DNA of 64,000 nucleotides from contig JALGYY010000047.1 in NCBI GenBank assembly GCA_025782575.1, positions 1-64,000 of the forward strand. Reading direction: 5' to 3'. Made by a program: the position numbers and the translations under genes. The first letter of the stretch is position 1, and each line of letters starts with the position of its first letter. This DNA is from a bacterium. GTDB lineage: Bacteria > Orphanbacterota > Orphanbacteria > Orphanbacterales > Orphanbacteraceae. Of this stretch, positions 35,610 through 41,053 are shown piece after piece. The notes under the pieces are model-generated. The model had not been told where the DNA came from and ran no database searches. It saw only the letters and a program-made list of their open reading frames with translations.

Positions 35610-35690
35610 TTCGGTCGCCCGTTCAATCGGGATCGGCTAAACTGGTCACAACATTATGTATTGCAGAAACGAACTCAAGGAGAGAAGTAC

Positions 35691-36479
35691 GTGAAATGCC
35701 ATGAGGTGGAATATGAGATTTTCGGGGACGACATGCAGGTGGTGGAGGTCGAGCTCGACCCCAACGAATCAGTAATCGCTGAAGCGGGCGCTATGAACTG
35801 GATGGAGGAGCAGATTACGTTCGAGGCGCGCATGGGAGATGGTTCGAAACAGGACGAAGGCGTAATCAGCAAGCTCCTCAGTGCCGGGAAAAGAGTGCTC
35901 ACAGGTGAATCAATTTTCATGACCCATTTCATGAATGCCGGTTCAGGGAAAAAGCGCGTTGCGTTTGCCGCGCCTTACCCCGGAAAAATCATCCCGATCG
36001 ACATGGCGGCGGTAGGCAATGAGCTGATCTGCCAGAAGGATTCATTTCTCTGCGCCGCGCTCGGAACGGAAGTGAGCATTGCCTTCGCCAAACGACTCGG
36101 CACCGGTTTCTTCGGCGGCGAAGGGTTCATTCTGCAGCGACTCCGCGGTGATGGCATGGCATTCGTCCATGCGGGGGGGACCGTGATCAAGAGGGAGCTG
36201 ACAGGAGAAACGCTTCGCGTTGATACGGGTTGTATCGTAGCGTTTTCGCCCGGTATCGATTACGACATTCAGCGGGCGGGTGGGCTCAAATCGATGTTCT
36301 TCGGCGGCGAGGGTCTGTTCCTGGCAACTCTTCGTGGTACAGGTACGATCTATCTGCAGAGCCTGCCGTTTTCGCGGCTCGCCGACCGCGTGTTGGCGCA
36401 TGCCCCCCGTGCGGGGGGAAGCAGGAAGGGTGAAGGGTCCGTCCTCGGCAAACTCGGCAATCTGCTGGACGGAGATTAG
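35691..36479 (+). CDS. TIGR00266/AIM24-family protein
   Basis: A 262-residue beta-rich protein. The family signatures are [53 protein letters not shown], and the repeat [20 protein letters not shown]. Bacterial members are of unknown biochemical function; a mitochondrial homologue (Aim24) affects inner-membrane organisation. The open frame begins at a TTG at 35661, but GTG at 35691 lies behind AAGGAG and fits the family start. It is 14 nt upstream of the selenoprotein gene and probably in the same transcript. Confidence 0.9.
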
Positions 36480-36493
36480 TCCGGAGATCAGTA

Positions 36494-37084
36494 ATGAGAG
36501 GGTCAATAGTCATGAGAGTCGGGAAAATGCAGGTCGCTGCCATCGCTATCTTTGCGCTTCTCTTCGCGTTCGGGTGCGGTGACGACGAGTCCCCTGTCGG
36601 TGCGAACGGCAACGGTATTCCCACCGGAAACCAGGCGCCGGATTTCGCACTGGCCGATGTCAACTCCTCGTCGGCAACCAATGGTGAAATGGTCTCGCCG
36701 CGGGATTACGAAGGAAAAGTATCGGCATGGTACTTCGGTCGCTCCACCTGAGGTTACTGTCTTAGCCAGTTTGGCTATCTCAACCAGATCCAATCTGAGA
36801 TCAACGAATCAAAGACGGGCCTCGAAATCCACATCCTGGGTCTGAACGGCGCAGGCCACGAAGGGGGAAACGGAACAGTCCCCGATTTCGGAACTCTTCC
36901 CTGGCTTCAGGATACGGACGAGCAACATGTATGGGAGACCTGGTCGGTGACGTACAGAGATGTCGTCATTCTTGATTCTGATAACGAGCCGTTTGCCGTA
37001 TACAATTTAACGGAAAACGATCTTTCCAGGTCGGAGTATCGCGATGCTCTTCGGGCGCTCCTTGATCAGGCAGCCGGAGATTGA
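36494..37084 (+). CDS. Probable selenocysteine-containing thioredoxin-like lipoprotein (TGA read through at 36749-36751)
   Basis: Ordinary translation stops after 85 codons at TGA (36749-36751), but the same frame continues for 110 sense codons to a TGA at 37082-37084. The residues around the TGA are KVSAWYFGRST-U-GYCLSQFGYLN, so U86 takes the place of the first cysteine in a thioredoxin-type C-x2-C motif (UGYC). Before it: signal peptide with lipobox (LLFAFGC), a spacer, and PDFALADVN, the redoxin start; after it: LEIHILGLNG, LPWLQDTDEQ and YRDVVILDSDNEPFAVYNL, typical TlpA/redoxin strands. A SECIS-like hairpin follows directly. GGAG lies 6 nt before the ATG; an ATG at 36512 is also possible. 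The alternative is a Cys-to-stop point mutation in a pseudogene. The protein would be a periplasmic thiol/selenol oxidoreductase. No sel genes are in the window. Confidence 0.8.
36749..36785 (+). promoter_or_regulatory. Candidate bacterial SECIS element
   Basis: After the TGA come 11 nt, then TAGCCA (36763-36768), loop GTT, and TGGCTA (36772-36777): a perfect 6-bp stem. GGTT (36752-36755) can also pair with AACC (36782-36785) as a lower stem with an internal loop. The 11-nt spacing and a loop containing G-U match the known E. coli fdhF SECIS upper stem-loop that SelB binds; the first loop G is 17 nt past the TGA. Confidence 0.65.
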
Positions 37085-37106
37085 GCATTCGGGAGAAGAC
37101 TCAGAA

Positions 37107-38861
37107 ATGCCCCGTATGAGTACCGCTTGGCGCCGCTCTATCGTTTTGCTCTCCATTCTTTCAGTTGCCGCTCTCTTCGGAGGGTGCGGATCTGACGATG
37201 ACGGTGTGGTCGGTCCCGGAGGATCCGAACTCGCCCTTTTCATCAACGAGTTGCTCGCGAACAATTCCACAGGACTTGCTGATCCCGACTTTGGTGAGAA
37301 GAGCGATTGGATCGAGATTTATAACGGCGAAGGTGAAGCGGTCGATATGGGCGGATTCGGGTTGACGGATGATCGTTCCCAACCATTTAAGTGGGTTTTT
37401 CCTGCCGGCACGATGATCCCGGCCGGCGGGTTCCTGATCGTATGGGCAGATGACGGCGACACGACGGCGATCGCCCATCACGCCAACTTCAAGCTGAGTT
37501 CCGGCGGAGAAAAAGCAGTGCTGTTCGATGCCGATGGTAACGTCGTGGATCTCGTTGAATTCGGCGCGCAGGTGGAAGACATCTCCTACGGACGAACGGC
37601 GGACGGCGGAGGCCAGTTCGGCACGTTCACCGTTCCCACGCCGGGAGTGACGAATGGTGCCGCCGTGACACCGGCCGCGATTCATATCAACGAGTTCCTA
37701 GCGGACAATGAAAACGGAATCGTCGATCCGGATTTCGGTGAAACGGGTGACTGGGTGGAGCTCTATAACAGTGGAGACCTGTCGGCCAATATCGGGGGTT
37801 GGACGATGACGGATGATCTCGAGGATCCGGGGCAGTGGACCTTTCCGCCGGGAACTTCAATCGACGGCGGGGGCTTCCTTCTCGTATGGGCCGACAAAAA
37901 CGACACGTCGGCCGTAGCGCATCACACGAATTTCAAGCTGAGCTCCGGGGGCGAATCGATCGGACTTTTCGATGGGGCAGGGAAAGTGGTGGACAGCCTC
38001 ACCTACGGCGAGCAGCAACCAGATGTCTCGTACGGCCGGATCGAGGATGGCGAATCGGAGTTTGCGGGTTTCGGAAGCCCGACGCCCGGGGAAAGTAACG
38101 AGAATTCCACGCCGGACGCGCCCCCCGTCATCCATGCGGTGTGGATCTCGCCGGCATTCCCGACCGCAGAAGATAGCGTCAGGATCACGGCGATCGTTAC
38201 GGACGATATGTCACTCGGTCTGGTCAGGCTTTTTCACAATATCGGCGGCCAGACCGTGGTCGGAATGACCGAGACGGGGGCCGATACATTCTTTGTAGTG
38301 TTACCGCCCCAACCATCCGAAACAGTGGTCGAATACTATATGGAGGCGACGGACGAAGCCCTGCAGGTTACGAGCGCCCCATCAGACGCTCCAGCATCTC
38401 TGTTCAGTTATCTGGTTGCTTCCGCACCTCCGATGGTGGTGATCAACGAGTTTCTCGCGAGCAACGACAGCACCAATATCGATCCCGATTTCGCGGACTA
38501 CGGAGACTGGCTGGAGCTATACAACGCCGGCGCATCTCCGGTCGATCTCGGCGGGTGGTATCTGACTGATGACCTTGCTGATCCGACATTATGGGAGATT
38601 CCTTCAAGTACTTCGCTCGCCGTCGGTGCTCATCTGCTGATCTGGGCGGATGACGGGGACACCACGGGCATCGCTCTTCACACCAATTTCAAGTTGAAGA
38701 GTGGTGGGGAGGAGATCGGGCTCTTCACGGCCGGCCAGGTACCCATGGATACGCTCACCTACGGTGTCCAGGCGACTGACGTATCGTACGGACGATCAAC
38801 CGATGGCGGTTCGGAGTGGGAGTTCTTCGACATACCGACGCCGGGCGAATCGAACGAATAG
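37107..38861 (+). CDS. Lipoprotein with three lamin-tail (LTD) domains
   Basis: A 584-residue lipoprotein (signal IVLLSILSVAALFGGC). Three LTD beta-sandwiches lie at about residues 42-175, 185-320 and 440-580; each has the pattern INE.LA.N, DPDFG/A..(G/S)DW.E(L/I)YN, GG(F/W).(L/M)TDD, (G)FL(L/I)VWAD and FKL.SGGE.(I/A).LF. Between the second and third lies a bacterial Ig-like stretch (VWISPAFPTAEDSVRITAIV). LTD domains in bacteria are extracellular binding modules, often near nucleases or CotH-type proteins; the ligand is unknown. It starts 22 nt after the selenoprotein gene, probably in the same operon. Confidence 0.85.
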   Translation: MPRMSTAWRRSIVLLSILSVAALFGGCGSDDDGVVGPGGSELALFINELLANNSTGLADPDFGEKSDWIEIYNGEGEAVDMGGFGLTDDRSQPFKWVFPAGTMIPAGGFLIVWADDGDTTAIAHHANFKLSSGGEKAVLFDADGNVVDLVEFGAQVEDISYGRTADGGGQFGTFTVPTPGVTNGAAVTPAAIHINEFLADNENGIVDPDFGETGDWVELYNSGDLSANIGGWTMTDDLEDPGQWTFPPGTSIDGGGFLLVWADKNDTSAVAHHTNFKLSSGGESIGLFDGAGKVVDSLTYGEQQPDVSYGRIEDGESEFAGFGSPTPGESNENSTPDAPPVIHAVWISPAFPTAEDSVRITAIVTDDMSLGLVRLFHNIGGQTVVGMTETGADTFFVVLPPQPSETVVEYYMEATDEALQVTSAPSDAPASLFSYLVASAPPMVVINEFLASNDSTNIDPDFADYGDWLELYNAGASPVDLGGWYLTDDLADPTLWEIPSSTSLAVGAHLLIWADDGDTTGIALHTNFKLKSGGEEIGLFTAGQVPMDTLTYGVQATDVSYGRSTDGGSEWEFFDIPTPGESNE

Positions 38862-38869
38862 TCCGGGAT

Positions 38870-38936
38870 AGCCCCCACCCGACCGTGTGAGTTTTCCTCC
38901 CGGGAGGAAGACTCACACAGTCGGGTGGTTGGGGCT
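38870..38936. terminator. Long palindromic hairpin between convergent genes
   Basis: A 67-nt near-perfect palindrome: AGCCCC, ACCCGAC, GTGTGAGT and TTCCTCC on the left pair with GGAGGAA, ACTCACAC, GTCGGGT and GGGGCT on the right, with few mismatches. It starts 8 bp after the LTD stop and reaches the stop codon of the oligopeptidase gene, so it probably ends transcription from both sides. Neither side has a U-tract. Confidence 0.7.
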
Positions 38937-41053
38937 CAATTCAATAGTCCGGCCAGGTCGAGAATGAAGGCGTATTCGAACGCTGTCTCCTCGTGGCGGG
39001 CGAATCGTCCCATCGTGCCGTGATGCCCCGCTTCCATGTTTGTTTTCAAAAGAATCCGGTTGTCGCTTGTGTTGTAAGCTCTGAGCTTCGCCACCCATTT
39101 GGCCGGCTCCCAGTACTGAACCTGACTGTCATGCAGTCCGGTTGTGACAAGCAGGTTGGGGTAATCACGGGCTGAAACATTATCGTAGGGCGAATAGGAC
39201 AGCATGTAGTCGTAGTCTTCTTTTATGTTGGGGTTGCCCCACTCGTCGTATTCGGATGTGGTGAGGGGTATGGATGAATCGAACATAGTGGTAACCACAT
39301 CCACAAACGGCATGGATGCGATGGCGCCATGAAAGAGGTCGGGCCGATCGTTGATGACCACACCGACCAGCAGTCCTCCCGCGCTTCCGCCTACAGCGTA
39401 TAGGCGATCGCTACTGGTATAACCCTCTGCAATGAGATGCTCCGCGCAATCGATGAAATCCCTGAACGTGTTCTTCTTCGCATGTTGCCGTCCATCTTCG
39501 TACCAGGCCCGGCCCAGTTCCGCACCTCCGCGGACGTGGGCGATGGCGAACGTCACACCACGATCGATCAGGCTGAGACGGTACGACCGGAAAGAGGCGG
39601 TCATGTTGCCGCCGTACGAGCCATAAGCGTAGAGATAAAGCGGGCTCGAGCCGTCTCTCTTCATTCCCTTCCTGTAGACGATGGAGATCGGGACGGCCGT
39701 TCCGTCTCGTGCCTCCGCCCAGAGCCGTTCGGTAACGTAATTATCCCGATCAAAACCGCCGAGTATCTCTGTCTGCTTCAGAAGTTCTTTCGACCGTGTG
39801 GTCATGTCGTAGCGAAAGACCGACTCAGGTGTATTGAGCGATGTGTAGCCGATTCGGAGAAGCTCCGTATCCTGCCCCGGGTTTTCATCAAACCAGGCGT
39901 TGTACGCCGGCTCGCCGAAATTGATGAAGTGATGTTCACCACCATCCAGCGGAACGATTCGCATTCGAATCAACCCCTCTTTCCACTCCTTGATTACCAG
40001 ATGTTTTTCGAAAGCAAGCATGTCTTCCAGGAGAACATCTTCGTAGTGAGGAATGACCTCCTTCCAGTTCTCTTCACCCGTTCGACCGACCGGCGTTTCC
40101 ATAATGCGAAAATTCTTCGCATCTCGATTGGAGAGAATGAAGAAGCGATCTCCCAGATGCTCGATTGAGTATTCATGGCCCATTTCGCGCGTCTGAAAGA
40201 TGCGGAACTCGCCGAACGGATCGTCGGCGTCGAGATAACGGATTTCCGTGCTGAGCGTATGTCCCAAATGAATGATGATGTACCTCTCCGATCGGGTCTT
40301 ACCGATCGATGCCCAGAACGTATCATCCTTCTCCTCGTAGACGAGGACGTCCGGCGTCTCGCTTCCCACTTCATGCCGCCAGATTTGATACCACCGTAAG
40401 GTCGAGGGCTCCTGCCTGCTGTAAAAGACATGCCGGTTGTCATTCGACCAGACGACCTGGCCTGTCACATCGGGAATAAGATCGGGAAGAGACTCGCCGG
40501 TGACGAGATCCTTGAAGTGAATGGTGTAGAATCGGCGCCCCTTGGTATCGATACCATAGGCGGCTATGTGACCATCCGGACTGACCGAAGCGCTGCGGGC
40601 TCGAAAAAAGTGGTGTCCTTCGGCGAGCGCGTTCTCGTCGATTACGATCTGTTCGGGCGCGTCGAGAGATCCCTTCTTGCGGCACTGAAACGCAAACTCC
40701 AGATCTTGCTCGAAACGTTCGTAGTAGAAGTATTCATTGTCCAAATAAGGAACAGAGGAGTCGTCCTTCTTGTACCGTTCTTTGATCTCCTCGAAGATCA
40801 CCTTCTGCATGGCGGTCGTGTGGCTCATCACATTTTCTGCATACTCGTTCTCCCGCGTGAGGTAATCGATCACCTCTTCACTTTCTCTCTCCTTCAGCCA
40901 GTAGTAGTTGTCCGTTCGAGTTCCCCCGTGCTCCTGAAACTCGTGCGGAATAATCTCGGCGCGAGGCGGGCTTCCCTCGCTCGCCACCCCGCGGCGAACA
41001 AATACCATTCCGATAATAAGGGAGACAGCAATCAGCAGCAGAACCATACGCAT
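38936..41053 (-). CDS. Oligopeptidase B-like S9A serine peptidase
   Basis: A 705-residue prolyl-oligopeptidase family enzyme with a hydrophobic N-terminus that is a signal peptide or anchor (about 3-24). The propeller covers about 60-410. The catalytic alpha/beta hydrolase has YAVGGSAGGLLVG (Ser557), HDSQVQYWEPAKW (Asp642) and AGHHGTMGR (His677); the Ser-Asp-His spacing of 85 and 35 residues equals that of E. coli oligopeptidase B. It should cleave small peptides after basic residues, here probably in the periplasm. It follows the ZIP gene by 22 nt in the same direction. GAGGG lies 8 nt before the ATG. Confidence 0.92.
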   Translation of the reverse strand: MRMVLLLIAVSLIIGMVFVRRGVASEGSPPRAEIIPHEFQEHGGTRTDNYYWLKERESEEVIDYLTRENEYAENVMSHTTAMQKVIFEEIKERYKKDDSSVPYLDNEYFYYERFEQDLEFAFQCRKKGSLDAPEQIVIDENALAEGHHFFRARSASVSPDGHIAAYGIDTKGRRFYTIHFKDLVTGESLPDLIPDVTGQVVWSNDNRHVFYSRQEPSTLRWYQIWRHEVGSETPDVLVYEEKDDTFWASIGKTRSERYIIIHLGHTLSTEIRYLDADDPFGEFRIFQTREMGHEYSIEHLGDRFFILSNRDAKNFRIMETPVGRTGEENWKEVIPHYEDVLLEDMLAFEKHLVIKEWKEGLIRMRIVPLDGGEHHFINFGEPAYNAWFDENPGQDTELLRIGYTSLNTPESVFRYDMTTRSKELLKQTEILGGFDRDNYVTERLWAEARDGTAVPISIVYRKGMKRDGSSPLYLYAYGSYGGNMTASFRSYRLSLIDRGVTFAIAHVRGGAELGRAWYEDGRQHAKKNTFRDFIDCAEHLIAEGYTSSDRLYAVGGSAGGLLVGVVINDRPDLFHGAIASMPFVDVVTTMFDSSIPLTTSEYDEWGNPNIKEDYDYMLSYSPYDNVSARDYPNLLVTTGLHDSQVQYWEPAKWVAKLRAYNTSDNRILLKTNMEAGHHGTMGRFARHEETAFEYAFILDLAGLLN

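Follow-up and report, generated by a model that had tools for sequence, protein, structure and literature searches.

Evidence for a TUGYCR-type thioredoxin-fold selenoprotein with a Sec codon kept between two genera of Orphanbacterota

Results and discussion

The window analyzed here is the whole stretch of 64,000 nucleotides at the start of contig JALGYY010000047.1 (assembly GCA_025782575.1, Orphanbacterota). Within it, a forward-strand reading frame is interrupted by a TGA at the first position of a thioredoxin-like U-G-Y-C motif. Does this codon end a short exported protein, or does it encode selenocysteine (Sec) in a longer one? The evidence makes it highly probable that the gene encodes a selenoprotein of NCBIfam family NF053656, with Sec inserted at UGA 86 through SelB, tRNA-Sec and a hairpin, and that the exported product carries a Sec86/Cys89 redox couple.

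Reading frame and internal TGA

The candidate selenoprotein gene occupies 36494-37084 (+) and contains a single internal TGA, codon 86 at 36749-36751 (+), across which it translates as ...FGRST-U-GYCLSQFGYL.... The second, presumably resolving, Cys of U-G-Y-C is encoded by TGT at 36758-36760 (+). Past the internal TGA, 110 sense codons lead to the terminal TGA at 37082-37084. The original prediction had given the same coordinates, TUGYC motif and codon count, and all were exact on re-reading. It had also held that any standard annotation would miss the active site: standard ORF calling did return an 85-aa stub (36494-36751), but the statement may fail where the NF053656 model is used.

Codon-usage log-odds were positive in the redoxin frame both upstream (0.06) and downstream (0.12) of the TGA, and negative in both shifted frames downstream. 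The open frame by itself is not significant, and its length is no proof, because 106 of the window's 2091 TGA triplets have 110 or more open codons after them. The weight of the case lies instead in NF053656 homology across the TGA and in the presence of the same TGA in a second genome (G004). A statistical scan of the window produced five other TGA read-through candidates (41679, 44122, 55481, 55619 and 59482, all +), which showed coding-like composition on both sides and had no redox motif nearby; they are perhaps shadow frames of opposite-strand genes.

Family assignment

With Sec read as Cys, the translation matched NF053656 ('redoxin_TUGYCR: TUGYCR motif thioredoxin fold (seleno)protein') at 1.5e-61 and 206.6 bits, about twice the curated cut-off of 100 bits. 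The match covered profile positions 2-145 of 146, spanned the TGA and was also recovered by a genome search. The window protein shares with the family the full-length domain and the T-U-G-Y-C part of the motif; the family name has Arg as the sixth residue, which the G004 homologue also has, whereas the window protein has Leu. Membership in NF053656 is well supported. The original prediction had named the gene a candidate new selenoprotein. Sec at the first UxxC position is strongly supported by the Sec machinery, the G004 TGA, the Cys paralogues and the hairpin, but the family is not new, because NCBIfam already holds a curated model named for the TUGYCR motif.

In the literature collection searched, no relevant paper mentioned TUGYC or NF053656, the sole text match being a zoology paper. 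In the 2026 prokaryotic selenoprotein catalogue (PMC13188914), searched as text, TUGYC and NF05x accessions were both absent; NF0499xx rows do occur, and the catalogue includes a generic UxxC 'Redoxin family protein'. Compared by catalogue text only, its redoxin-family selenoproteins and Prx-like thiol:disulfide oxidoreductases with UxxC, placed under PF08534 and PF00578, resemble the window protein in the UxxC motif and a redoxin-like domain. The window protein did not reach the Pfam gathering thresholds for AhpC-TSA (21.8 vs 26 bits) or Redoxin (21.4 vs 26.6 bits). No match was obtained from plasmids by tblastn and no relative from viral contigs; Rfam matches within the gene region were attributable to chance. 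In a single scan of genome contigs, the one match was a distant Cys-containing protein from Chryseomicrobium (28%).

Conservation of the TGA

Among the seven phylum genomes examined, the gene was present in one genome besides the source, G004, which belongs to the same family but another genus. The G004 homologue, too, is interrupted by a single TGA, which falls at codon 86 in the alignment. Identity between the two proteins was 36/77 (47%) before the TGA and 57/110 (52%) after it. After the TGA, dN was 0.44 and dS was saturated; this comparison indicates that purifying selection acts on the post-TGA part, which an ordinary stop would leave untranslated. The original prediction had looked to homologues for Cys or TGA at position 86, and both were observed: TGA in G004, and Cys aligned to the TGA in three TlpA/ResA-like CxxC proteins, two of them paralogues from the source genome and the third from Chryseomicrobium aureum. 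A sparsely sampled phylum gains a well-supported selenoprotein, with Sec codon, hairpin and neighborhood kept between genera. A weak TGA-containing match on contig C19 was ruled out as a selenoprotein, with stops of all kinds lying nearby.

Selenocysteine machinery

The source genome (4.88 Mb, 95% complete) contained selA, selB, selD and tRNA-Sec, the four components that the original prediction had pointed to. The tRNA-Sec lies at C21:332467-332560 (72.7 bits against a gathering threshold of 47) and was called tRNA-SeC with anticodon tca by ARAGORN. selB was found at C2:55856-57718 (378.6 bits), selA at C2:461564-462925 (524.6 bits) and selD at C46:271946-272869 (379.1 bits). The selD gene has an in-frame TGA of its own, in KAGUAAK, and is likely to encode a selenoprotein as well; this TGA stands at the customary Sec position of SelD, with the motif UxxK (PMC13188914).

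Among the seven phylum genomes, selB was present in 7/7 and selA in 5/7, so the absence of the redoxin from the others is not due to a missing Sec pathway. The two genomes in which selB was found and selA was not, G001 and G006, are fragmented assemblies (830 and 340 contigs, respectively), and the absence of selA there may be an assembly gap. In G004, selA was recovered in two overlapping pieces (C12:38616-39982, profile positions 1-313 and 306-453), a split that could reflect a frameshift, an assembly error or a real break.

These results bear on the other ways of reading the TGA. Only two sequences were recovered from the phylum, and the Cys codons TGC and TGT are one step from TGA; a mutation or miscall of such a codon would make the gene a pseudogene or a sequencing error. 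This is very improbable, since a homologue of about 50% protein identity in another genus has the same TGA, purifying selection acts on either side of it, the NCBIfam family is named for U at the site, and the Sec machinery is complete. The original prediction had taken absence of selB and selC, together with relatives showing other stops or frameshifts, as the mark of a pseudogene; selB and tRNA-Sec are present, and G004 keeps its one TGA.

Sec insertion in general competes with termination, and the 85-residue stub includes the export signal. The stub might then be the main product, with read-through minor or selenium-dependent, but we give this just as little credence: the stub stops short of the active site and the conserved fold, which are located from the TGA onward, and sequence conservation downstream is on a par with that upstream (52% after, 47% before). 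Reassignment of TGA in this organism, for example to Trp or Gly, would likewise leave the frame open but is scarcely credible, because TGA still works as a stop, closing the redoxin frame itself shortly ahead of the downstream gene, the genome encodes a canonical tRNA-Sec and the CxxC relatives have Cys at the position.

Hairpin downstream of the TGA

A bSECIS-like hairpin, UAGCC-AGUUU-GGCUA, is predicted at 36763-36777 (+). The fold UAGCC-AGUUY-GGCUA is possible in the window gene and the G004 gene alike, with G in the second loop position and the loop lying 16 nt past the UGA. The G004 stem has an extra G-C pair where the window sequence has U-U. The bSECIS model specifies a loop of 3-9 nt with G in the first two positions, a stem of 4-16 bp, a position 16-37 nt after the UGA and MFE <= -7.5 (PMC13188914). 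With a loop of AGUUU (or GUU), a stem of 5-6 bp and a spacing of 16-17 nt, the window hairpin clearly agrees with the model in loop and spacing. Its fold energy, -7.4 to -12.8 kcal/mol according to the stretch folded, is borderline against the MFE limit, and its z was only -1.2. The bare stem has an energy of -5.8 kcal/mol, and about 12% of random window TGAs reach -5. Because hairpins of similar strength follow about one in eight random TGAs, the predicted structure supports Sec insertion without proving it and is weak as independent evidence. No hairpin was recovered downstream of the selD TGA by the same simple search, whose sensitivity is therefore limited.

Predicted export and redox chemistry

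The true start is probably the ATG at 36512 (codon 7), because AGAGGG lies nine bases upstream and the resulting leader, MRVGKMQVAAIAIFALLFAFGC, is close in length to that of G004, MRFRSIIPILISWAALFAGC. The leader forms a predicted signal peptide (36512-36577, +) with a lipobox-like end, A-F-G-C, whose Cys is residue 28 in the numbering of the original prediction. The corresponding end in G004 is F-A-G-C, and the usual pattern is [LVI][ASTVI][GAS]C. Because the lipobox is imperfect, lipid attachment at Cys28 and a periplasmic location are putative.

We propose that SelB and tRNA-Sec insert selenocysteine at UGA 86 under the direction of the hairpin that closely follows it. An N-terminal signal would export the precursor, Cys28 would probably carry a lipid anchor, and Sec86-Gly-Tyr-Cys89 would act as a selenol/thiol redox couple. 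As suggested by the TlpA/ResA-like relatives, the selenolate may attack a disulfide or peroxide substrate, with Cys89 resolving the mixed selenylsulfide.

The window protein resembles the ResA/TlpA oxidoreductases (PF00578/PF08534, NF002854) in predicted export, in the position of the CxxC motif and in the order of elements, and the source-genome paralogues align with it. It differs from them in falling below the curated cut-offs and in having Sec in place of the first Cys. Where TlpA-type proteins have the cis-Pro (P-T-T), the window protein has Y-R-D; the pairing could shift by one residue, and no proline is near. TlpA function is not to be assumed, because the cis-proline is missing. The AlphaFold model, built from two sequences, was of low confidence (mean pLDDT 41.9), so the fold assignment rests on sequence. 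A search of solved structures gave insignificant matches only (a glutathione peroxidase and ResA).

Gene neighborhood

The redoxin gene is preceded by an AIM24 / TIGR00266 family gene (35661-36479, +) and followed by a gene for a lipoprotein-like protein with three Lamin Tail Domain matches (37107-38861, +; PF00932, 1e-61), toward which an oligopeptidase B-like S9 peptidase gene converges (38936-41053, -). The lamin-tail and peptidase genes are in the G004 cluster too. In G001, G002 and G003, AIM24 is kept, and no redoxin, lamin-tail or oligopeptidase-B match was found within the 5.5-7 kb around it.

Tyr-Arg-Asp in place of the cis-proline, a possible membrane anchor and the lamin-tail / S9 peptidase neighborhood together raise the idea that TUGYCR proteins are not TlpA-like disulfide oxidoreductases but a separate type of envelope selenoenzyme, targeting a specific partner or a peroxide; we consider this rather unlikely. 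For the reading preferred here, an exported NF053656 selenoprotein with a Sec86/Cys89 couple, the AIM24 / lamin-tail / oligopeptidase B context offers a modest lead on the function of a named family.

The neighborhood is common to both genomes except that the redoxin and lamin-tail genes are swapped: the order is AIM24, redoxin, lamin-tail protein and opposite-strand oligopeptidase B in the window (35661-41053), and AIM24, lamin-tail protein, redoxin and opposite-strand oligopeptidase B in G004 (L035:7876-10557).
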